NCBI GenBank assembly: GCA_017544005.1 | Contig: JAFYEZ010000037.1 | Location: 62,001-126,000 of the forward strand | DNA: 64,000 bases | Direction: 5' to 3' | Source of the DNA: Bacteroidales bacterium | GTDB lineage: Bacteria; Bacteroidota; Bacteroidia; Bacteroidales; UBA932 | Shown: piece after piece, positions 4,200-16,766 of the stretch | How positions within the stretch are numbered: position 1 is the first letter of the stretch | How the letters are laid out: every line of letters starts with the position of its first letter | Program-made: the position numbers and the translations under genes | The notes under the pieces: model-generated | Told to the model about the DNA's origin: nothing | Seen by the model: only the letters and a program-made list of their open reading frames with translations | Database searches by the model: none

Positions 4200-5402
4200 A
4201 TGAAAAAGACGCTTCTCCTTCTGGCGGCCCTGGTCCTGACGGTGTATTCCGCCGCGCCCGCCCGCGCACAGCAACTTTCCCAGTCGCAGATTGAAGAAAA
4301 GATCCGCGGCTACATGGACGAATGCATGACGGCCGGTATGGCGGTCGTACTGGTCAAAGGCGACAAGATTGTCTATCAGAACGCCTTCGGCGTCCGCGAC
4401 CGCGAAACGGGCGAACCGCTGGAAATCGATGACATCTTCCGGATTGCCTCCATCTCCAAGTCCTTCTCGGGCATGTCCATCATGCAGCTCGTGGAGGCCG
4501 GCAAACTCTCGCTGGACGACGACATCAACGACATCCTCGGGATGAACATCCGCAACCCGCGCTATCCCGACATCCCCATCACCGTCAAGATGCTGCTCTC
4601 GCACACCTCTTCCATGAAGGACGGCGGCGGTGCGGAGAAATACCGCGACCTGACCTATGTGGATGAGAGCAAGACCGATCTCGAGACCATCCGCAACACC
4701 GCCTGGCTGCCCTATCCTCCGGGCCAGGGCTACAAATACTGCAACCGCGCCCTCAACATCATCGGCATCATCATCGAGAAGGTCTCCGGTGAGCGGTTCG
4801 ATGAATACGTCCGCAACCACATCCTGAAGCCCATCGGCGCCGACAATGCCGGCTACAACCTCGACTCGCTGGACAACTCCAAGTTCACGAAACTCTATAT
4901 CTACAACCAGAAAGAGGACCGGCTGGATCCCGGCAAGGGTTATGTCCGCAACAACGAGATCAAACTCGCTGACGGTACCTATGAAATCGGCAAGGACGGA
5001 TGCTACTGGTCGCCTACCGGCGGTATGAAGATTTCCGCCCCGAACCTCGCCAAATGGATGATGACCCTGCGCGACGGCGGCGTGGCCCCGAACGGCAACC
5101 GCATCATCTCCGAGGCGGGCTGCAAGAAGCTGCTGACCCCGGTCACCCCGGCCGATCCCGGCACGCTCTACTGCCTGACCACCCGCACCGAAACCCGCTT
5201 TATCGAGGGTAAGACCCTCAAGGGCCACACAGGCAGCGCCCAGGGCCTCAAGAGCTGCATGTTCTTCTGCCCGGGCGAGGACTGGGGTTTCGTCTGCCTC
5301 TGCTCCAGCACCAAGCTCGACAAGATCAACGAGGTGTACAAGATCTACTACCAGACCATCAACCTCCTCTACGACCAATACATCAAACCGTATAACAATT
5401 AG
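4200..5402 (+). CDS. Secreted beta-lactamase-family serine hydrolase, copy 2
   Basis: 400 aa with signal peptide ending ARAQ. Catalytic motifs SISK (Ser84, Lys87), YCN (Tyr180, Asn182) and HTG (343-345) sit at the same residue numbers as in copy 1, with no gap in register between them. Long identical stretches with copy 1 near the C terminus (for example SSTKLDKINEVYKIYY) show recent duplication. The ATG at 4200 is one base after the previous TAA, so the pair is probably translationally coupled. Predicted periplasmic or secreted; substrate unknown. Confidence 0.9.
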   Translation: MKKTLLLLAALVLTVYSAAPARAQQLSQSQIEEKIRGYMDECMTAGMAVVLVKGDKIVYQNAFGVRDRETGEPLEIDDIFRIASISKSFSGMSIMQLVEAGKLSLDDDINDILGMNIRNPRYPDIPITVKMLLSHTSSMKDGGGAEKYRDLTYVDESKTDLETIRNTAWLPYPPGQGYKYCNRALNIIGIIIEKVSGERFDEYVRNHILKPIGADNAGYNLDSLDNSKFTKLYIYNQKEDRLDPGKGYVRNNEIKLADGTYEIGKDGCYWSPTGGMKISAPNLAKWMMTLRDGGVAPNGNRIISEAGCKKLLTPVTPADPGTLYCLTTRTETRFIEGKTLKGHTGSAQGLKSCMFFCPGEDWGFVCLCSSTKLDKINEVYKIYYQTINLLYDQYIKPYNN

Positions 5403-5408
5403 TTGTTT

Positions 5409-6641
5409 ATGAAACGCTTATTGGGCCTGGTTCTGGCCATCTTCCTCACCGGAGGGCTCTATTCCTGCGGTGCGGTGACACCGGAAGGCCCGGGGACCGG
5501 TACGGATTCCGGCAAGCCCCGGGAGCTGACCCCCGAACAGTTGGCCAAGCTCGACAAGGAGATGGCCGACATCGCGCATGACCACGACGTCGCCTCGATG
5601 CAGGTGGCCTTCGTGATGGGCGACGAGATTGTCTATTCCCACGCGGTCGGGCAGAAGAACCTGGCCGCTCAGGTACCCGCTTCCGTCACGGACCTCTACC
5701 GGATCGCCTCGATTTCCAAGTCCTTTTCCGGCGTTTCTACCATGCAGCTGGTGGAGGCCGGAAAACTCTCGCTGGACGATGATGTAAGCGAGATTGTGGG
5801 CTTTCCCGTGCGCAACCCGCGCTACCCGACGGTTCCCATCACCGTCCGGATGCTGCTCTCGCATACCTCCAGCGTGGTGGACAACTCCAAGGTCTCCTAC
5901 AAGTCCTCTTTTGACGAGACCCTGGATCCCACGACGGCTTCTGCGACCAACGTGGCGGCCTGCTACTCCTCCTATGAACCCGGGACGCACTACCAGTATT
6001 CCAACCGCGGCATCAACCTGCTTGGCGCCGTGATCGAGAAGGTCTCGGGCGAGCGGTTCGACAACTACGTCCGCCAGCATATCCTGCTGCCGCTGGGCAT
6101 CACCGATGCAGGGTTCAACGTGGATTCGCTGGATCGGTCGCGCTTCGCCTCGCTCTATACCATCAGTGACGCCACCGGCGAATTCGTCGAGCAGACCGGG
6201 GCCTACGTGCGCTATCCGCAATACGATACGTATCGCCTGGGAATTGACACTCCGCACTTCTCGCCGGCCGGCGGCATGAAGATTTCCATCCTCGGCCTGG
6301 CCGAATGGATGCTGACCCTCAAGCGGGGCGGCGTTGGCACAAACGGCGTCCGGATCCTCCCGGCAGCGCGCGTCGAGCAGATGTTCCAGAAGGCGACGCC
6401 CGACAACAGCACGGTGAAATACGGCTTCACGCTCTCCCTCTCCAAGTCGCTTCTCGGTTTCCCGATGCGCGGCCACACCGGCAGCGCCTACGGCCTGAAG
6501 AGCGTCATGAACTACAGCCTTGACGAGGATTTCGGCGTTGTGGTCTTCTGCGCCAGCGCCGACGGCGAAAAGGGCGCCCACGGGGGCGTAGCCGCCTACA
6601 GCGAAGCCGCCGAGGTGCTCTACAAAGCGTTTGTGCGGTAG
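5409..6641 (+). CDS. Beta-lactamase-family serine hydrolase, copy 3, lipoprotein
   Basis: 410 aa from the ATG at 5409; an in-frame TTG at 5403 is less likely. Unlike copies 1 and 2 it has a lipoprotein signal with lipobox Cys20 (LYSC) followed by a Gly/Pro/Thr linker, so it should be membrane-anchored, possibly at the surface. Motifs SISK (Ser101, Lys104), YSN (Tyr197, Asn199) and HTG (355-357) are intact. It is more diverged than copies 1 and 2. It begins 6 nt after copy 2 and closes the likely operon from 1627. Same fold and chemistry as its neighbours, different localisation. Confidence 0.88.
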   Translation: MKRLLGLVLAIFLTGGLYSCGAVTPEGPGTGTDSGKPRELTPEQLAKLDKEMADIAHDHDVASMQVAFVMGDEIVYSHAVGQKNLAAQVPASVTDLYRIASISKSFSGVSTMQLVEAGKLSLDDDVSEIVGFPVRNPRYPTVPITVRMLLSHTSSVVDNSKVSYKSSFDETLDPTTASATNVAACYSSYEPGTHYQYSNRGINLLGAVIEKVSGERFDNYVRQHILLPLGITDAGFNVDSLDRSRFASLYTISDATGEFVEQTGAYVRYPQYDTYRLGIDTPHFSPAGGMKISILGLAEWMLTLKRGGVGTNGVRILPAARVEQMFQKATPDNSTVKYGFTLSLSKSLLGFPMRGHTGSAYGLKSVMNYSLDEDFGVVVFCASADGEKGAHGGVAAYSEAAEVLYKAFVR

Positions 6642-6672: not shown

Positions 6673-8115
6673 ATGAAACGCGCGATACCGATTTGTATTT
6701 TACTGAGTTCGATGATTGCCTGCTCCGGGGATCCGGAGCCGGCATTTTCTGCGCCGGAAATTACGGAGGTGACCGTAGCGGCGGAGGCGCAGAGCGCCAT
6801 GATCTCTTTCCGGGTGGACAAGGGAAAGGCGACCGCCTGCGGCGTCAATCTGTCGGAGGATACGCCGGGAGCCTCCGTCCTGCGGGTGGAGGGCGACCTC
6901 AACGAGGGGCTGGCCGAGGTGAAACTGAGCCACCTGACAGCCGGTTCGTCCTATTGTTTCATCCCCTGGGCCGAGAACGGCAAGTTTGAAATCAAGGGAG
7001 AGGAACAGCGTTTCTCGACAAAACCGCTCGCCGATGTGCGGATCTATGATTTCCTCTGCTATTCCCCGACGGTCTCTACCATTTCTTTCTCTTTCCAATA
7101 CACCGCTCCGGAGCGTGTGGTTTCCGCCAGTCTCTGGTATTGGCCGGCAGATGCAGCCGGTATTTCCGATCCGGCCGCCCATCAATTGCCCCTCATCGCT
7201 TCTTCTGCCGGAAAGATATCCGGGTCTTTGTCCGGCCTTCAGCAGAATACAGCCTACTGCGCGCAGCCGTTCATCTATACCGAAGCGGGCTATATTGCCG
7301 GTAACGTGCAACAGTTCTCCACGAGTAGCGGCAATATCTCCGTTTCGTGGGACGACCTACATAGCAATGATACCGTCCCCCATGTCCTTATTATCAATTT
7401 TTCCGTCATTGACCACTCCGGGCAGAATACGCCGAAGGCTTATTTTATGGTTCAGGAGGGAGATCGTATCACCTTTGATGAAAACACCCTGATAGACGGT
7501 CCTCATGACATTTCCGGACGACTCAGGGTGATGTACTTATTTGCAAAATCTGGTACACAATATACCGTGTTGCCTTTTGTCCGCAGCGGGCAGGATGATA
7601 TTCTGGGTACGCCCCGTACCCTTACGACCGGGGTAGGCGTGGAGAAGAGCATTAAGCGGAGTTATTTTCGTATATGGGAGTTCAAAAGGAACGTAAAAGA
7701 TGCTGCTCTCCGGAAGTATCTCCTGGAGAGTTTTGACACGGATCAGGACGGGACGCTTAATAACAATGAAATCAATGAGGTCAAACACATCGATTGCCGC
7801 TACCGGGGAATCAAGTCATTGGAAGGTCTTTCGCGTTTTCAGAATGTCATCTCCATCGATTGTTCCGGAAATCCTATCCAGGAAATTGATTTAATCTATC
7901 GCAATGATATTTTCGGTTGGTGTAATTATTGTGCGCCCAGATATCTTAAGTCCTTCACGGCGCTGGATATGAAGGATTCGGAGGGACATAACACGTTAAA
8001 ATACCTGGTTATCGGGAAGCACACCAACACAAAGGTCACCGTACCGGAAGAGTGTGTCGTTCAATACGATGAAACCGGCATGTACTACTACTCTTATTAT
8101 TATACGGATTATTAA
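6673..8115 (+). CDS. Lipoprotein with fibronectin-like repeats, EF-hand and LRR-like tail
   Basis: 480 aa from the ATG at 6673 (an upstream in-frame start at 6649 would bury the signal peptide). Lipobox Cys17 (MIACS). Residues ~25-330 are beta-rich with repeating units of about 100 residues reminiscent of fibronectin-III/BACON modules. A canonical EF-hand loop lies at 355-366 (DTDQDGTLNNNE). It is followed by an LRR-like segment (KSLEGL, then CSGNPIQEIDL) seen in Bacteroidota surface proteins. The extreme C terminus is tyrosine-rich (MYYYSYYYTDY). I infer a calcium-binding surface lipoprotein; function unknown. It converges on the kinase gene with only 9 nt between the stops. Confidence 0.75.
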   Translation: MKRAIPICILLSSMIACSGDPEPAFSAPEITEVTVAAEAQSAMISFRVDKGKATACGVNLSEDTPGASVLRVEGDLNEGLAEVKLSHLTAGSSYCFIPWAENGKFEIKGEEQRFSTKPLADVRIYDFLCYSPTVSTISFSFQYTAPERVVSASLWYWPADAAGISDPAAHQLPLIASSAGKISGSLSGLQQNTAYCAQPFIYTEAGYIAGNVQQFSTSSGNISVSWDDLHSNDTVPHVLIINFSVIDHSGQNTPKAYFMVQEGDRITFDENTLIDGPHDISGRLRVMYLFAKSGTQYTVLPFVRSGQDDILGTPRTLTTGVGVEKSIKRSYFRIWEFKRNVKDAALRKYLLESFDTDQDGTLNNNEINEVKHIDCRYRGIKSLEGLSRFQNVISIDCSGNPIQEIDLIYRNDIFGWCNYCAPRYLKSFTALDMKDSEGHNTLKYLVIGKHTNTKVTVPEECVVQYDETGMYYYSYYYTDY

Positions 8116-8124
8116 CCCGAACCG

Positions 8125-9168
8125 TTAATCCGTCTTCTGTTTGAACAACCCCGTTGCCTCTTTCACGATGCGGTCCACTTCGCTGGCGACCGTGTTCTCG
8201 GTCTCGGCGGCAGAGGGGGCCTCTTCGGGGGCTTTGCGGATGGTCTGACGGGCGGGAGCGGCCGGAGTCGGCGGGACTGCGGAAGCCGGGGTGGCGGACC
8301 CCTCCGGAACGGTTACCGTCGGAACCTCAACAGCCGGCGTTATTTCAGGCGTCGCCCGGTTGTCCGGGCGCAACAGCAGGAAAAACAGCAGGGCAGCCAG
8401 CAAAAGGATGACGGCCGGAATCCAATTCTGCCAAGGGCGGGGTTTTACGACTGCCCGCCGAAGCTCCTCCACCGAACCATAGCGTGCCGCAGGGTCTTCA
8501 CACAGGCATTTCCGGGCCGCGCGGCGCCACCGCTTTCCGAAGAGCAGGAGAATCTTGCCCAGCGACCAGATATCCGCCCGGTTGTCCACCGTCCCGCCCG
8601 CAATCAATTCCGGAGCGGCATATTTCTCGGTTCCCGCAGAGAGTTTCAGAATACTGTACGCATCGTTGTCCGCAAAGCCGAAATCGATAATCTTGATATT
8701 GGCGCCATTGTGGGTGACCAGCAGGTTCGACGGTTTTAAATCCTTGTGAACCACCTGTTTCGAGTGGAAGTAACTCACTGCGTCAAAGAGTTGGTTCAGC
8801 AAGCGGAGTTTCTGGTCGTCGGTCGGAAAGGTCGTCTTCAGGTATTCCTCCAGCGGAATCCCGTCGATCCACTCCATCTCGATACAGCGACCCAATCCCG
8901 GATACTCCAGAAAAGAATAGACTTCACAAATGTAGGGATTGGAGAGAGAATACCCGATCTCATACTCTTTGCGCAGCAGCGCTTCATAGGCCGGCAGGCC
9001 GCGATAGCGGGTTTCCAGACACTTCAACACGCGGCGCTTCCCCGATTTTTCTATCCGGAACAGCGCGCAGATTCCGTTGGTGGAACCGGGAATCCGTTTC
9101 ATGGGCAGCGCTTCCGGCAATGCAGGATCGTCGGGAGAGAAGAAAGAGGATGATTCGTCTGAATACAT
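8125..9168 (-). CDS. Eukaryote-like Ser/Thr protein kinase, single membrane segment, kinase 1
   Basis: 347 aa. Cytoplasmic kinase domain at ~30-245: VLK (Lys49), Glu69, catalytic loop HKDLKPSN (141-148), IDFG (161-164), APE (185-187), DIWSLG (199-204). A membrane helix spans ~249-266 and is followed by an ~80-residue Pro/Thr/Ala-rich extracytoplasmic tail with no folded domain. The Gly-rich ATP loop is poorly kept and the usual HRD Arg is Lys. It aligns without gaps through ~residue 245 with the kinase at 10828-12327, so the two are duplicates with different outer parts. It is divergent from the exported protein at ~9232, with a perfect 15-bp palindrome between them. Confidence 0.9.
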   Translation of the reverse strand: MYSDESSSFFSPDDPALPEALPMKRIPGSTNGICALFRIEKSGKRRVLKCLETRYRGLPAYEALLRKEYEIGYSLSNPYICEVYSFLEYPGLGRCIEMEWIDGIPLEEYLKTTFPTDDQKLRLLNQLFDAVSYFHSKQVVHKDLKPSNLLVTHNGANIKIIDFGFADNDAYSILKLSAGTEKYAAPELIAGGTVDNRADIWSLGKILLLFGKRWRRAARKCLCEDPAARYGSVEELRRAVVKPRPWQNWIPAVILLLAALLFFLLLRPDNRATPEITPAVEVPTVTVPEGSATPASAVPPTPAAPARQTIRKAPEEAPSAAETENTVASEVDRIVKEATGLFKQKTD

Positions 9169-10240: not shown

Positions 10241-10831
10241 ATGGCTGAAGTACAGAACCCATACCACACTCCTGAAATCCAAGCGCTTATGGCGGCCGTA
10301 GAGCAGCGTTTCCAGCGAAAGCCGGAAACGACGATGCACTTTATTGCACTCTCCTATGCCATTGAGAGCGCAACCGGAAACCAGCTTTCTGCCTCCACCC
10401 TGAAGCGGCTTTGGGGCTACGTCAACAACATTCCCGCGCCGCGGGTAACCTCGCTTGATATCCTGTCGCAATACGTCGGGCACAAGTCTTTCCGGGCTTT
10501 TTGTGAGTGGCTCCGCGCCAAGACAGTGGAGACATCGGCCTTTTTCCAGACTTCGTATCTGATTCCGGAAGAACTGACTCCGGGCACCCTCGTGGAGCTG
10601 GGTTGGGAACCGGACCGGCTGGTGCGGGTGGAATATTTGGGCGGACAGAACTTTCGGGTGATTGAGTCGCGGAATTCCAAGCTCCAGAAGGGCGATGTGT
10701 TCGAGGCCTCCTCGCTGATGACGGGCTACCCGCTCTGCCTGAGCGGCGTGCTGCGCGACGGAAAACTCACCTCCCCGTTTGTAGGCGGCAAGAAAGGCGG
10801 CCTGACGATTGTCCGGACCGTTACTGTTTAG
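10241..10831 (+). CDS. Conserved cytoplasmic protein between two kinases, helical N-terminal domain
   Basis: 196 aa, no signal or membrane segment. Residues ~30-90 form a helical, HTH-like block (TGNQLSASTLKRLWGYV, then SLDILSQYVGHKSFRAFCEW). A beta-rich half follows (ELGWEPDRLVRVEYLGGQNFRVI to the end). I have no family name for it; the pattern resembles hypothetical Bacteroidota proteins with a predicted nucleic-acid-binding N terminus. It has its own promoter-like element. It is convergent with the fimbrillin-kinase, the two stop codons overlapping in TTAG at 10828-10831. A role with the kinases (substrate or transcriptional output) is only inferred from position. Confidence 0.6.
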   Translation: MAEVQNPYHTPEIQALMAAVEQRFQRKPETTMHFIALSYAIESATGNQLSASTLKRLWGYVNNIPAPRVTSLDILSQYVGHKSFRAFCEWLRAKTVETSAFFQTSYLIPEELTPGTLVELGWEPDRLVRVEYLGGQNFRVIESRNSKLQKGDVFEASSLMTGYPLCLSGVLRDGKLTSPFVGGKKGGLTIVRTVTV

Positions 10832-12327
10832 CGAAGATCCATCTCAACCGCCGTCATCTCGCCTCGGATAACCTCCACGAGCGAGTCGGCCGGTTGTGTC
10901 CAGGTGAAGATGTCGCCTTCTGCCGTATAGATGGTGGCGGAGAGGTCGGAATAAGTAGTGGGCGGAACGGCTATGAAGAAAGGAACCGGGGTTTCACCGA
11001 CCGGAACCTCCGGACAGGAGAGTTCCAGGTCTCCGCTTCCTTTCCACTTCAATACACAAGCCGAACTCACCGTATAGCGGCCGGTAAGGCCTTTTTCTGA
11101 ATGGAAAACAATCTTTTTGACAAGAATCGGCCGGGATGCGGTCAGGTTGATCCGGATATAGCCACACAGGCTCCTCATTGTAAATTTCGGGGTTAAACGC
11201 CCCTGGTGGTTATACTTATAAAAACCGGCCATCGGGTAGATAGAGGGTCCATCCGGTGTATATTCCTGAACTGCAGGCAGTTTAGTTTTGATCGAGACAG
11301 GATAGAAGGCCCAGAAAGACGTGCTGTCCGGATTGAGCGCAGCGGTGTTTTTCCGGGTGTGGCGGAATCGTACCGTGGCGCCGCTGCCGAGCGCATCATA
11401 CGTAGGGCGGTTCTTTTTGTCCGAAAGATACAACCGGTCGCCCTTGCGCCACCGGTGACACACCGGGGTCTCTTCTACGGTAACGGTAATATACTTGACT
11501 TCGGCAGGGGTTTTCGGCCGCTCGCGGGTCAAGCCTAAAATTGGCAGGATGGACAGTAAAAGAAGTGAAGGCAGAAGCCAGCGCAACCAAGTCCGCCGCG
11601 TGGCGGCAATAGCCTGCTGCAATTCCTGCACGGTTTTGTATCTCCGCTCGGGGTCTACTTGGGAGCACTTACGGATAATACGGCGCCACCCCCGGCCGAA
11701 GAGCGGAAGAATTTTTCCAAGGGAATAAATGTCAGCGCGGTTGTCCACCGGAAGGCCTGCCATCAGCTCGGGTGCCGCGTATTTCTCAGTACCCGCAGAG
11801 AGCTTCAGCTCGCTGTCTGCATCCCTATCCGCAAAGCCAAAATCCAGAATCTTGATATTGGCTCCGTTGTTGGTGACCAGAATATTGGATGGCTTTAAAT
11901 CTTTGTGTACAACCTGTTTGGAGTGGAAGTAGCCCACCGCTTCGAACAATTGGTCCAACAGCCGGTACTTCTGTGCCCGGCCGGGCTGAACGGTTTCCAG
12001 ATACTTATCCAGCGGCAACCCGTCAATCCACTCCATCTCGATACACCACCCCAGGTCTTCGCGCTGCGTAAAACTATAGACTTCACAGATATAGGGACAG
12101 GAGAGCGTATGCCCGATTTCATACTCCTTGCGGAGCAGGGCTTCAAAGGCGGGCTTCCCGCGATGCTTCTCTTTCAGACATTTGAGCACCCGCCGGAGGC
12201 CCTCCTTCTCGATCACATACAGGTCGCAGAGGGCATCCGGAGCGGTTTCAATCTGCTGCATGCTGCTTTCCGGCCGAAGTTTGGGTTCTTCGGCCGAAAA
12301 GAAGCAGGAGGTCTCGACGGCATTCAC
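10828..12327 (-). CDS. Ser/Thr protein kinase fused to an extracytoplasmic fimbrillin-like domain, kinase 2
   Basis: 499 aa, GTG start at 12327. That start is supported because the first 245 residues then align gap-free with kinase 1 (ETSCFFS versus ESSSFFS). Kinase: Lys49, Glu69, HKDLKPSN (141-148), LDFG (161-164), APE (185-187); no Gly-rich loop. A membrane helix lies at ~247-266. Residues ~285-499 have the pattern of a fimbrillin: WRKGDRLYL (293-301), SFWAFYPV (337-344), SLCGYIRINL (386-395), then ELSCPEVPV, FFIAVPP and TAEGD. Fimbrillins are normally secreted pilus subunits, so this looks like a sensor borrowed from one. It follows the C69 dipeptidase by 2 nt and is probably the last gene of that minus-strand operon. 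Confidence 0.88.
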   Translation of the reverse strand: MNAVETSCFFSAEEPKLRPESSMQQIETAPDALCDLYVIEKEGLRRVLKCLKEKHRGKPAFEALLRKEYEIGHTLSCPYICEVYSFTQREDLGWCIEMEWIDGLPLDKYLETVQPGRAQKYRLLDQLFEAVGYFHSKQVVHKDLKPSNILVTNNGANIKILDFGFADRDADSELKLSAGTEKYAAPELMAGLPVDNRADIYSLGKILPLFGRGWRRIIRKCSQVDPERRYKTVQELQQAIAATRRTWLRWLLPSLLLLSILPILGLTRERPKTPAEVKYITVTVEETPVCHRWRKGDRLYLSDKKNRPTYDALGSGATVRFRHTRKNTAALNPDSTSFWAFYPVSIKTKLPAVQEYTPDGPSIYPMAGFYKYNHQGRLTPKFTMRSLCGYIRINLTASRPILVKKIVFHSEKGLTGRYTVSSACVLKWKGSGDLELSCPEVPVGETPVPFFIAVPPTTYSDLSATIYTAEGDIFTWTQPADSLVEVIRGEMTAVEMDLR

Positions 12328-12329
12328 GA

Positions 12330-13610
12330 CTACTTAAACTCGTAGGTGTACGGGAGGTTTTGGTAGAGCGGATTGGCGAGAATCAGAGATTTGACTTGCG
12401 CGTTGATTTCAGCGATGTCTTTCACGTTGCACTTGCCGGCCTTGCGCCACTTCTCCAGGTAGGGCTCGGTGAGGGCGAAGACCGCCTTTTCCGTCGGAGC
12501 GAGCTGCTGCATGTAGCCGTCGCCTTTGATGTTGTAAAGCTTGCGGAAGTTTAAGTAAACCAGCGCGTTGTTTTTATTCGAGAGGTAGATCTGCGTCTTG
12601 AGCTTGAGGGACAGGTCGCAGATCGGGGCGCAGTCATTGTTGGCCGCATCACCGCGAAGGAGCGGGTTGATGCCTTCGCGGCCGCCCTTCACCCAAAGCG
12701 GAATGGCCACGGAGGTGGCGGGACAGCCCAGCGCCGCCCAGATGGTGGTCAGCGAGGGGTCTTCGCCCGGGCGGACACCCACCAGCACGCTGGCCTGATA
12801 AGTACCGTCGTTGCAGATAATATCGTCGAACGGGATGATGCCGGTGCCCAGCTCGATGCCCGCATCCACCAGCGCACGGTGGTCAATTCCCAAGGCGGCA
12901 TTGTAAAAGCCGCGCGAACAGCGGTCCAGGCAGAGCTGCGGGGTGTAGTCGCGGGTCGGAGTGGCTTCTCGGAAAGCCTTGACGGCCGCATCGTGGCGGT
13001 AGTATCCCTTGCCGGTATCCGGGTTGCCGTGTCGGCCGAAGTTGGCATAGACCAACCAGCCGTCGGGGGCCACCTTCGGGTCGTTGACGTCCATCACCCA
13101 GTATTCCACCTTTTCCCCGGCATACTTCACCTCCACATACGCCGCACCGCCATTGGCGTCAATCACGCCATAGTGCGAGGAGACATATTTCTTGGCCAGC
13201 TTAATGGTTCTGGGAATATTGATGGTATCCAGCAGATGGCAGAAATCCGCCAGCGTCACGCAGACGTCCAGCGCCTCTTTCATCAGGAAGCCGTTGTTGA
13301 TCTGCTTGCGCTCTTCGGGATCCCAGATGTGGCTGTATGACATCGTGTTCATGATGGAGAACCCTTTCTCGTTGGTGCCGAACCAGGCGACCTTCGGGTT
13401 GGGAGCGGTCTGGGAAAGGCCTACCCAGGCATATTTGCCTTCATCGTGATACGCATAACGCTGCGAGGAGTACACGCCGGAGCCGTCGGTGTTTTTCCAC
13501 ATCATCGGACGGCCGTCTTGGGTGGCGCGGCCGCTGACCACCACGGAGGTGCAGGCAAAAGCGCCGGTCGTCCCCATCAGGAGCGCCAGCAGAATCAATA
13601 TCCGTTTCAT
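12330..13610 (-). CDS. C69-family dipeptidase / Ntn-hydrolase, copy 1
   Basis: 426 aa. Signal peptide is followed immediately by Cys20 (FACTS), the expected N-terminal nucleophile exposed by processing in C69 dipeptidases and related choloylglycine-hydrolase-fold enzymes. Next come SGRATQDGRPMMWKNTDGSG, typical of the secreted Bacteroidota branch, and later GVIDANGGAAYVEV. It likely cleaves dipeptides or other linear amides in the periplasm or outside. It lies between a D-aminoacylase gene and kinase 2 (2-nt gap), and a distant paralogue lies at 29884. The start is preceded by a 10-bp-phased AAACG repeat also found before aspS. Confidence 0.88.
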   Translation of the reverse strand: MKRILILLALLMGTTGAFACTSVVVSGRATQDGRPMMWKNTDGSGVYSSQRYAYHDEGKYAWVGLSQTAPNPKVAWFGTNEKGFSIMNTMSYSHIWDPEERKQINNGFLMKEALDVCVTLADFCHLLDTINIPRTIKLAKKYVSSHYGVIDANGGAAYVEVKYAGEKVEYWVMDVNDPKVAPDGWLVYANFGRHGNPDTGKGYYRHDAAVKAFREATPTRDYTPQLCLDRCSRGFYNAALGIDHRALVDAGIELGTGIIPFDDIICNDGTYQASVLVGVRPGEDPSLTTIWAALGCPATSVAIPLWVKGGREGINPLLRGDAANNDCAPICDLSLKLKTQIYLSNKNNALVYLNFRKLYNIKGDGYMQQLAPTEKAVFALTEPYLEKWRKAGKCNVKDIAEINAQVKSLILANPLYQNLPYTYEFK

Positions 13611-13640
13611 AATCGTTTCTTTACGTTTATTTCCGTTTAT
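13611..13640 (-). repeat. Three 10-bp units with AAACG in phase, before the C69 start codon
   Basis: Read on the minus strand: ATAAACGGAA, ATAAACGTAA, AGAAACGATT, then ATG. The first unit supplies the TAA stop of the upstream D-aminoacylase gene (13637-13639). Seventeen bases (ATAAACGTAAAGAAACG) are identical to the repeat before aspS at 53103-53142. Confidence 0.8.
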
Positions 13641-15214
13641 TTGACTTCGTGACGGAGCACCATGCCGGAGAGGGTGCCGGTATAGACATCATTCTCCACG
13701 GCGATCTCGCCGTTGACAATCACGTTCTTGAAACCGGTGGCGAAGAGGGTCGGATCTGCGTAGGAGGCGTGCGGCACAACCTCTTCCGGTTTGAAGATGG
13801 TGATGTCGGCGAAGCAACCCTTGCGGAGGAAGCCACGGTTCTTCAGACCGTAGGTTTCAGCCACCTGACCGGTGCTGCGGCGGATGAAGCGGTCCAGCGT
13901 CAGGACGCGTTTCTCCACCACGAACTGCTTGATGAGTTCGGCATAGGTGCCGGCAGCACGCGGGTGGGAGCCGAAGGAGCCGTCCGTGCAGGACATCACC
14001 CAGGGCTGTTTCATATACTTGGTCAGGTCTTCTTCGTTGGCAATGAAGGTGTTGAGGTACGGCGACTTGGTTTTGTCGCTCAGCAGTTCAATGATGGCGT
14101 CCACCGGGCTCTTCTTCATCTTGGCAGCTGCTTCGGCCAGTGTCATCTGGGAATACTCGCCGGCATTCTTGCTGATATAGATGGTCTCGGCACCGCCGCG
14201 CTCGTAGAGGATATCTGGGATTTCCGCTTTGATGCGCGCGAGCAGCTCGGGATCCTTGAAACGCTCACGCATCGCCTTGGTTCCGCCGTCGCGGCACCAG
14301 GCCGGAGTCAGGGCGGAAGCCATGCCGATACCGGAAGCCAGGTAAGGATACTGGTCTGCGGTGACCTTCATGCCCTGCTGCTGGTAGGACTCAATCAGGC
14401 TGATCACGCTGTCGGCCTTGTACCACTCGGAACGGCCCAGGCACTTGATGTGCGAAATGTTGACCGGCACACCGGCCGCCTTGCCGATTTCGAGGGCTTC
14501 GCGGATGGAGTTGACCAGGCCGATATTGAATTTGTTCTCGTTGCGCACGTGCGTGGTGTACATACCGCCCATCTTGCCCATCTCTTTCATCAGTTCCACG
14601 ACTTCAGAGGTTTCACTGAAGCAACCGGGAACATAGAAAAGACCGGTGGAAAGGCCCAGGCTGCCGTCGCGCATCTCCTGGCGGACGAGTTCCTTCATCT
14701 TTTCCACCTCTTCCGGGGTGGCATAGCGCGCCTCGTCGCCCATCACCTGCTCACGGATGGTGTTGTGACCCGTGAAGCTGGCCACGTTGGTGCCGATGCC
14801 CTGCTCCTCGAGTTTGGCGAAGAAGTCACCGATCGGGTAACGGCTGCCGCCGCACATACCCGGAATGACGGTCGTGACACCCATCCGGAGGTAGGATTCG
14901 TTGGCGCGGTCCTTCAAAAGGGTCGGCTCAAGGTGGTCATGCGGGTCAATAAAGCCCGGGCAGACGACATAACCCTCGGCGTTGATGGTCCGCTTGGCAG
15001 CGCAGCGGTTGACGATGTCCGCTTTGGCCGGAGCGACATAGACAATTTTATTTCCGACCACGGCGATATCGGCCTTGACCGGGCTCTTTTCGGAGCCGTC
15101 ATAGACCGTTCCGCCGGTAATCAGGAGGTCTGCGGTCTTCGGAAGACGCTGACCGCACGAAAAAACGAGTAACAAACTGGTTAAAAACGCAGCTACAGAT
15201 ACAAATTTCTTCAT
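13637..15214 (-). CDS. D-aminoacylase / N-acyl-D-amino-acid amidohydrolase, lipoprotein
   Basis: 525 aa from the ATG at 15214; an in-frame start 11 codons upstream overlaps glyS and lacks a signal. Lipobox Cys20 (LVFSC). Amidohydrolase superfamily: DLLITGGTVYDG at the start, metal-binding DPHDH after VCPGFI, then HNTIREQVMG, TTHVRNE, ISHIKCLG and DQYPY, the arrangement of N-acyl-D-amino-acid deacylases. The reaction is hydrolysis of an N-acyl-D-amino acid to a D-amino acid plus a carboxylate. The enzyme should face the periplasm. It begins 1 nt after the glyS stop, so it belongs to that operon, and is followed by the C69 dipeptidase. Confidence 0.9.
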   Translation of the reverse strand: MKKFVSVAAFLTSLLLVFSCGQRLPKTADLLITGGTVYDGSEKSPVKADIAVVGNKIVYVAPAKADIVNRCAAKRTINAEGYVVCPGFIDPHDHLEPTLLKDRANESYLRMGVTTVIPGMCGGSRYPIGDFFAKLEEQGIGTNVASFTGHNTIREQVMGDEARYATPEEVEKMKELVRQEMRDGSLGLSTGLFYVPGCFSETSEVVELMKEMGKMGGMYTTHVRNENKFNIGLVNSIREALEIGKAAGVPVNISHIKCLGRSEWYKADSVISLIESYQQQGMKVTADQYPYLASGIGMASALTPAWCRDGGTKAMRERFKDPELLARIKAEIPDILYERGGAETIYISKNAGEYSQMTLAEAAAKMKKSPVDAIIELLSDKTKSPYLNTFIANEEDLTKYMKQPWVMSCTDGSFGSHPRAAGTYAELIKQFVVEKRVLTLDRFIRRSTGQVAETYGLKNRGFLRKGCFADITIFKPEEVVPHASYADPTLFATGFKNVIVNGEIAVENDVYTGTLSGMVLRHEVK

Positions 15215-15215
15215 A

Positions 15216-16766
15216 TTATTGAACTTTATGGATGTTTCTGAGGACACTTGTCATGCTAATCTTCTTGGAAACGACGTCGTGAAGGGTGGAAATCGGGATT
15301 CTTTCCTGCTCCATGGTGTCTCTATCGCGGATTGTAACACAATTGTCACTTAGGGTATCGTGGTCAATCGTAATACAGTAGGGAGTACCAATGGCATCCT
15401 GGCGGCGATAGCGCTTGCCGATAGAGTCCTTCTCGTCATACTGGCAGTTGAAGTCAAATCGCAGCATATCAAGGATTTCGCGGGCTTTTTCAGGCAATCC
15501 GTCCTTCTTGACGAGGGGCAAAATTGCGAGCTTGACCGGGGCGATGCAGGCCGGCAGACGGAGCACGACGCGCTCCTCGCCGTCGGCGAGTTTCTCCTCC
15601 GTGTAGGCAGCGGAAAGGATGGCCAGGAACATGCGATCCAGACCGATCGAAGTCTCGATGACGTACGGCGTGTAGCTCTCTCCGGTCTCCGGATCGAAGT
15701 ACTGGATCTTGCGGCCGCTGAACTTCTGGTGCTGCCCCAGGTCGAAGTCGGTACGGGAGTGGATACCCTCAAGCTCCTTGAAGCCGAAGGGGAACTCAAA
15801 TTCGATGTCGGTAGCGGCGTTGGCGTAGTGGGCCAGCTTCTCGTGGTCGTGGAAACGGTATTTCTGGTCGCCGAGGCCGAGGGCCTTGTGCCAGGAGAGG
15901 CGGGTCTCCTTCCAGGCCTTGAACCAGCGCATCTCCTCGCCCGGACGGACAAAGAACTGCATTTCCATCTGCTCAAACTCGCGCATACGGAAGATAAACT
16001 GCCGCGCCACGATCTCGTTGCGGAAGGCCTTTCCGATCTGTGCGATACCGAAAGGAATCTTCATGCGGCCGGTCTTCTGGACGTTCAGGAAGTTGACAAA
16101 AATGCCCTGGGCGGTCTCAGGACGCAGATAAATGGTTCCTACGCCACCATCTACATTGCCCAGCTGCGTGCTGAACATCAGGTTGAACTGACGCACTTCC
16201 GTCCAGTTCTTGGTACCGGAAATCGGGCAGGCAATCTCACAGTCGATGATAATCTGGCGCAGCTCGGCAAGATCGTTTTTGCCCAGCGCCTCGGTCATCC
16301 GGGTGTGCACCTCGTCCCATTTGGCCTGGTTGCGGATCACATTCGGGTTGGTGGCACGGAACTGCGCCTCGTCAAACGCATCGCCGAAACGCTTGCGGCC
16401 CTTCTCGACCTCCTTGTTGTTCTTTTCCTCGAGTTTGGCCAGATAATCCTCGATCAGGACGTCTGCACGGTATCTTTTCTTGGAATCCTTGTTGTCAATC
16501 AGCGGGTCATTGAAGGCGCTCACGTGGCCCGAGGCCTCCCAAATACGGGGATGCATGAAGATGGCCGAGTCGATTCCGACGATGTTGTCGTTCAGGTGAA
16601 CCATCGACTCCCACCAGTATTTCTTGATGTTGTTCTTCATCTCCACGCCGTTCTGGCCGTAGTCATACACGGCGCTCAGACCGTCGTAGATCTCGCTGGA
16701 GGGGAACACGAATCCGTATTCCTTGGCGTGCGCCACGAGATTCTTAAAAGCTTCTTCCTGTGTCAT
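15216..16766 (-). CDS. glyS: Glycine--tRNA ligase, alpha2 (single-chain) type
   Basis: 516 aa class II aminoacyl-tRNA synthetase charging tRNA-Gly. The single-chain form is recognised by the N-terminal GFVFPSSEIYDG and MVHLNDNIVGIDSAIFMHP, motif 2 around FRNEIVARQFIFRMREFEQME, and motif 3 GLDRMFLAIL, then a C-terminal anticodon-binding domain. Length is usual for the bacterial alpha2 enzyme. Its ATG overlaps the folK stop (ATGA at 16763-16766) and the D-aminoacylase follows after 1 nt. It is a housekeeping gene embedded in a mixed operon. Confidence 0.97.
   Translation of the reverse strand: MTQEEAFKNLVAHAKEYGFVFPSSEIYDGLSAVYDYGQNGVEMKNNIKKYWWESMVHLNDNIVGIDSAIFMHPRIWEASGHVSAFNDPLIDNKDSKKRYRADVLIEDYLAKLEEKNNKEVEKGRKRFGDAFDEAQFRATNPNVIRNQAKWDEVHTRMTEALGKNDLAELRQIIIDCEIACPISGTKNWTEVRQFNLMFSTQLGNVDGGVGTIYLRPETAQGIFVNFLNVQKTGRMKIPFGIAQIGKAFRNEIVARQFIFRMREFEQMEMQFFVRPGEEMRWFKAWKETRLSWHKALGLGDQKYRFHDHEKLAHYANAATDIEFEFPFGFKELEGIHSRTDFDLGQHQKFSGRKIQYFDPETGESYTPYVIETSIGLDRMFLAILSAAYTEEKLADGEERVVLRLPACIAPVKLAILPLVKKDGLPEKAREILDMLRFDFNCQYDEKDSIGKRYRRQDAIGTPYCITIDHDTLSDNCVTIRDRDTMEQERIPISTLHDVVSKKISMTSVLRNIHKVQ

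Follow-up and report, generated by a model that had tools for sequence, protein, structure and literature searches.

What a bacterial Ser/Thr kinase could perceive through the fold of a pilus subunit is the question raised by a gene on the minus strand (10828..12327) of the 64,000-nucleotide stretch analyzed here (the window), which belongs to contig JAFYEZ010000037.1 of the Bacteroidales bacterium assembly GCA_017544005.1. The gene has a GTG start and encodes a protein of 499 residues, predicted to consist of a Ser/Thr kinase domain, a membrane helix and a periplasmic C-terminal domain of fimbrillin-type fold. This order of domains had been proposed in a preliminary description of the sequence, and it is borne out by Pfam, hydropathy, the AlphaFold2 model and structural matches in the PDB. 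The kinase domain (approximately residues 36–245; 11593..12222, minus strand) matches PF00069 over residues 45–207 (E-value 4.3e-31; 108.7 bits, cut-off 31.7) and harbors K49, E68, HKDLKPSN (141–148), DFG (162–164) and APE (185–187). The GxGxxG glycine-rich loop is not recognizable in the window kinase, where the PF00069 match begins at profile position 26 of 263. The predicted membrane helix (residues 247–266; 11530..11589, minus strand) corresponds to the hydropathy maximum directly after the kinase domain. The C-terminal half of the protein has no Pfam match, even at E 10, and the PASTA family is absent among the ten Pfam matches of the kinase up to that value.

The outer domain (residues 278–499; 10831..11496, minus strand) is predicted to be periplasmic. 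AlphaFold2 models residues 268–499 with a predicted local distance difference test score (pLDDT) of 95.1, and comparison of this model with the PDB reveals, over the whole domain, the two-part beta-sandwich of the fimbrillin superfamily (FimA and Mfa1-4; Bacteroidales structures 3t2l, 4k4k and 3ufi), so that the predicted structure agrees with the fold first proposed from motifs. Sequence profiles give no such match. No match of the window domain to Mfa_like_1 or to other fimbrillin models is obtained at E-values up to 1, one of the 43 members of an alignment of domain copies (A2) reaches Mfa_like_1 (E 0.037), and hhalign of the domain against a set of ten Mfa_like_1 proteins, which includes two from the window, detects no sequence relation (probability 0.6%). 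Judged by its sequence, the outer domain groups with the N-terminal domains of leucine-rich repeat (LRR) lipoproteins. It matches six further places in the genome of the window (G000), in open frames of 594–939 residues, and many more in a set of 41 genomes, all of them within the same genus. Homology to lipoprotein N-terminal domains is clear (best phmmer E 1.8e-36 in a local set; best profile match E 5.7e-60 in one genome), and a pattern search places the lipoprotein copies after a likely lipobox cysteine. In six lipoproteins scanned with Pfam the domain is followed by DUF285 LRRs (four cases), by Laminin_G_3 and GDPD (one), or by BPL_N and a sub-threshold PPC (one). In a tree of 53 domain copies, the ten kinase copies form a single clade (100/100); four LRR lipoproteins join it at 98/86, and a fifth does so at 89/29. 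In contrast to these DUF285/BspA-type relatives, their nearest group, the kinase copies have no LRR, are preceded by a membrane helix where the lipoproteins have a lipobox, and are 9–12 residues shorter past the first strand. Two of the five nearest lipoproteins (in G000 and in a second genome, G010) adjoin genes with a TonB-receptor plug and CarbopepD_reg, i.e., of SusC type, and Pfam confirms a SusD gene beside the G010 lipoprotein; the copies in G013 and G047 have no SusC-type neighbor in the gene listing, which was not domain-scanned. These few cases hint at a SusC/SusD neighborhood. One lipoprotein (L050:773-3706) apparently has two tandem fimbrillin-type domains before a BPL_N-like domain.

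It had been suggested that the kinase monitors fimbrial assembly through its outer domain, which would exchange donor strands with the cell's own fimbrillins, such as those encoded in the window. The fold is compatible with this idea, and Mfa_like_1 matches number 9 and 12 in the two genomes that carry the fusion kinase, which puts both near the top of the 25 genus genomes compared. The first beta strand, however, speaks against it. According to two papers (PMC5789003, PMC4789730), proteases cut shaft and tip fimbrillins at an exposed Arg of the beta1-beta2 loop, with loss of the first strand, whereas the anchor Mfa2 lacks this Arg and retains the strand. All 41 lipoprotein copies carry, after the first strand, an insert with T-R or a variant of it (Arg in 38, Lys in 3). 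This insert of 9–12 residues is absent in 14/14 fusion kinases, in which the segment has 14 residues, versus 23–26 in the lipoproteins. Because the insert with the conserved Arg or Lys is missing, the kinase copies resemble, by analogy, the anchor state. In the AlphaFold2 model the first strand (residues 279–284, model strand E12-17; 11476..11493, minus strand; next to a 13-column gap in alignment A2) is present and joined to the membrane helix, and the chain stops at its last strand. As modeled, the kinase copies do not look like substrates for such cleavage or like donors of a strand. Nor does the window domain start with the lipidated N-terminal Cys of pilus subunits, as it follows the kinase and the membrane helix. 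One basic residue remains in or after the first strand in seven of the 14 fusion kinases (in the window copy it is R292, just before a conserved Trp) and none in the other seven, which leaves some room for cleavage at this position. Unlike a pilin, then, the outer domain likely keeps its first strand, with neither cleavage nor polymerization, and donor-strand sensing is unlikely. A genome with nine Mfa_like_1 matches (G021) has no Pkinase match, which also argues against an assembly monitor. Together with the missing sequence relation to the fimbrillins of the window and the grouping with LRR lipoproteins, this makes such a monitor very improbable. Recruitment of a pilus-subunit fold as a periplasmic sensor, the other part of the suggestion, is a reading that the data support, if conditionally; the proposed tie to fimbrial assembly is not supported. 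The same G021 has 20–23 matches to the fimbrillin-type N-terminal domain, yet no Pkinase match in the genome, which indicates that the main job of the module is not kinase-related.

The fusion is not confined to the window. A search for relatives of the kinase, capped at 7,996 scored candidates, gave at least 665 matches; among the 120 listed, 13 carry the domain (P0002–P0014, of which P0006 and P0014 only partially), and it is absent from P0015–P0121 among the matches listed. The survey of kinase and fimbrillin-type fusions proposed at the outset thus finds at least 13 database proteins with this architecture. The VLK, HKDLKPSN, DFG and APE motifs are kept in 14/14 fusion kinases. Two database proteins (P0007 and P0013) are mosaics, their first part near-identical to one fusion subfamily and the rest to another, which reflects either recombination or chimeric assembly. 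With a profile of the kinase copies, the domain is found at E 1e-10 in nine of 40 genus genomes, and it resides on a kinase in two of them, G000 and G010. A kinase identical to that of G010 is encoded on JAFSWO010000083.1, from a goat-rumen Bacteroidales metagenome-assembled genome. Literature searches on combinations of fimbrillin, BspA and Hanks-type kinase returned no such fusion among the titles and abstract openings listed.

A gene on the plus strand (10241..10831), hereafter the partner gene, runs tail to tail into the kinase gene, with an overlap of 4 nucleotides. It encodes a protein of 196 residues with an N-terminal helical, helix-turn-helix-like domain and a C-terminal beta domain (AlphaFold2 pLDDT 85.6). 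In an alignment of 13 partner proteins, S50 and T53 are invariant throughout. Across Bacteroidales, this class of kinase is repeatedly paired with the partner gene. Relatives of the latter number 13 in 12 of the 40 genus genomes, all of them at most 1.5 kb from a Pkinase match and all at loci that match the profile of this kinase class. The pairing is specific to this class and does not extend to all kinases, as 23 genus genomes contain 38 Pkinase matches, of which only 14 are situated at a partner locus. A survey of 295 Bacteroidales genomes yielded, outside G000, 45 partner genes of near-full length (E ≤ 2.2e-31); weaker matches mainly cover the N-terminal domain and mostly lie inside larger frames, and six such loci were retrieved. 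A class kinase is present in the retrieved flank of 36 of these 45 genes, within 209 nucleotides in 35, on the same strand in 20 pairs, divergent in 11 and convergent in five. These 36 cases represent 35 kinases, as two partner genes at one locus (L213) share a kinase, one of them 4.8 kb away. The remaining nine genes have no class kinase in the retrieved flank, one of them lying at a contig end. As a control, the same kinase profile was applied to other genus loci, whose flanks are for the most part shorter than those of the order-wide partner set, and matched at 0/20 lipoprotein, 0/30 Mfa_like and 2/30 C45 hydrolase loci, both of the latter through the fusion kinase. These counts identify the partner protein, and not fimbrillins, as the usual companion of the class. 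The N-terminal domain of the partner also precedes Kelch repeats, from which it is separated by a hydrophobic segment (L257), and a NACHT-type NTPase (L256), as would be expected of a signaling output domain.

The outer part of these kinases is exchangeable. Forty-seven kinases of the class were aligned (A6), comprising 46 from partner loci and a sibling kinase encoded in the window; from the 51 frames found, two repeats of the window kinase and three locus-end fragments were left out and the window reference was added, and two members, from G013 and G017, are cut short. K49, E68, D143, N148 and D162 are invariant in 47/47. BspA-type LRRs (LRR_5) form the outer part in seven and the fimbrillin-type domain in two, the latter domain being absent from the 35 order-wide partner-linked kinases examined. 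The LRR lipoproteins combine these same two parts, the fimbrillin-type domain and the LRR, so that the kinase family appears to borrow surface-lipoprotein modules as outer parts. Three partner-linked kinases (L229, L236 and L244) carry BspA-type LRRs after the membrane helix, the layout of a bacterial LRR receptor kinase, and two others (L014 and L015, from G013 and G017) have long outer parts of surface-protein type, in frames of 786 and 778 residues. It could be argued that the domain is only a scaffold that dimerizes or spaces the kinase without any specific sensing, as six genus relatives expose only 24–80 residues (the sibling included; 24–50 in the other five). Against this possibility, which we regard as quite improbable, stands the retention of the domain in fusion kinases that have diverged; when six sequences are aligned, 70 of the 255 columns are invariant.

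The model that we favor, with a probability of roughly 0.4, is that of a receptor kinase relaying an envelope signal to the adjacent predicted DNA-binding protein. The outer domain would be a copied surface-lipoprotein module, retained at the inner membrane, where it may bind whatever handles or binds the module; candidates are a partner in export or in the outer membrane, the lipoprotein as such and the ligand of the lipoprotein. Such binding would alter the way in which kinase molecules come together within the membrane. The partner protein would then be phosphorylated by the kinase, and its N-terminal helical domain would bind DNA, shifting the expression of envelope genes. In this model, orientation in the membrane, ligand, phosphorylation of the partner and DNA binding are all inferred. 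Structural support for the helix-turn-helix is weak, and a beta domain makes up half of the partner protein; it may instead act on the kinase as an adaptor or regulator and not be a transcription factor, an alternative that we consider unlikely.

The genes upstream leave room for a small-ligand sensor. Directly upstream, separated by 2 nucleotides, lies a gene for a C45/AAT-like hydrolase (12330..13610, minus strand; PF03417 and PF02275 above cut-off), likely co-transcribed with the kinase gene. It is preceded in the same run by an amidohydrolase gene (13637..15247, minus strand; subfamily match NF006560 below cut-off), whose product we take to be D-aminoacylase-like, and by a synthetase gene, presumably for glycyl-tRNA synthetase. 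The order synthetase, amidohydrolase, C45-type hydrolase, fusion kinase and partner gene is the same in G010 (locus L119), with an identical 2-nucleotide gap between hydrolase and kinase and an identical 4-nucleotide overlap between kinase and partner. In addition, two adjacent genes for class-C beta-lactamase/AmpH-like hydrolases (4200-6641, plus strand; NCBIfam scores far below cut-offs) lie at the far side in the window, and such genes are also near the kinase in L119. The ligand could thus be a periplasmic peptide, D-amino-acid or glycan product tied to the hydrolases, in parallel with the sensing of muropeptides by PASTA kinases. However, the hydrolase matches are under the NCBIfam cut-offs, and a class kinase beside C45 genes only in the two fusion loci makes the hydrolase-kinase link look young. 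We hold this alternative to be rather unlikely. The sibling kinase (8125..9168, minus strand; 347 residues, 62% identity over query residues 5–286) has a short tail without the fimbrillin-type domain; it is the sole other Pkinase match in the window's genome assembly, which is 86% complete, and is missing from the corresponding place in the second genome. In the sibling and in P0015–P0024, a variable linker is followed by a conserved SEVDRIVKEATGLF-like tail, missing from the fusion kinases.

The window kinase is predicted to share with PASTA-type kinases (PknB, PrkC, Stk1) a cytoplasmic Hanks kinase domain, one membrane helix and an extracytoplasmic C-terminal domain, and its top NCBIfam match is NF033483, in the kinase part only and below cut-off. 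It differs from them in that it has no PASTA match and its outer part is of fimbrillin type. PASTA kinase genes generally adjoin a phosphatase gene, as stated in a review (PMC6213207), whereas the window kinase adjoins that of a predicted DNA-binding protein. The same review describes such kinase systems as lacking dedicated transcription factors, a view that the pairing of kinase and partner, if confirmed, would contradict. As in two-component systems, the gene of a putative membrane sensor kinase lies next to that of one predicted DNA-binding output protein; the difference is that the kinase domain is of Ser/Thr type, and that the Pfam list of neither protein includes a His kinase or receiver domain. 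A broader proposal, which we put forward more tentatively than the favored model, is that these pairs are a Ser/Thr counterpart of two-component systems in Bacteroidales, in which a membrane Hanks kinase with a dedicated adjacent transcription factor would draw its sensors (BspA-type LRR or fimbrillin-type) from surface lipoproteins of the same cell and read in the periplasm what these lipoproteins meet, or their export. If this is true, a receptor domain has been made from the fold of a pilus subunit, Bacteroidales would possess a Hanks kinase family with a one-to-one output protein, and the pair would offer a way into the monitoring of surface lipoproteins and of SusCD-linked systems.
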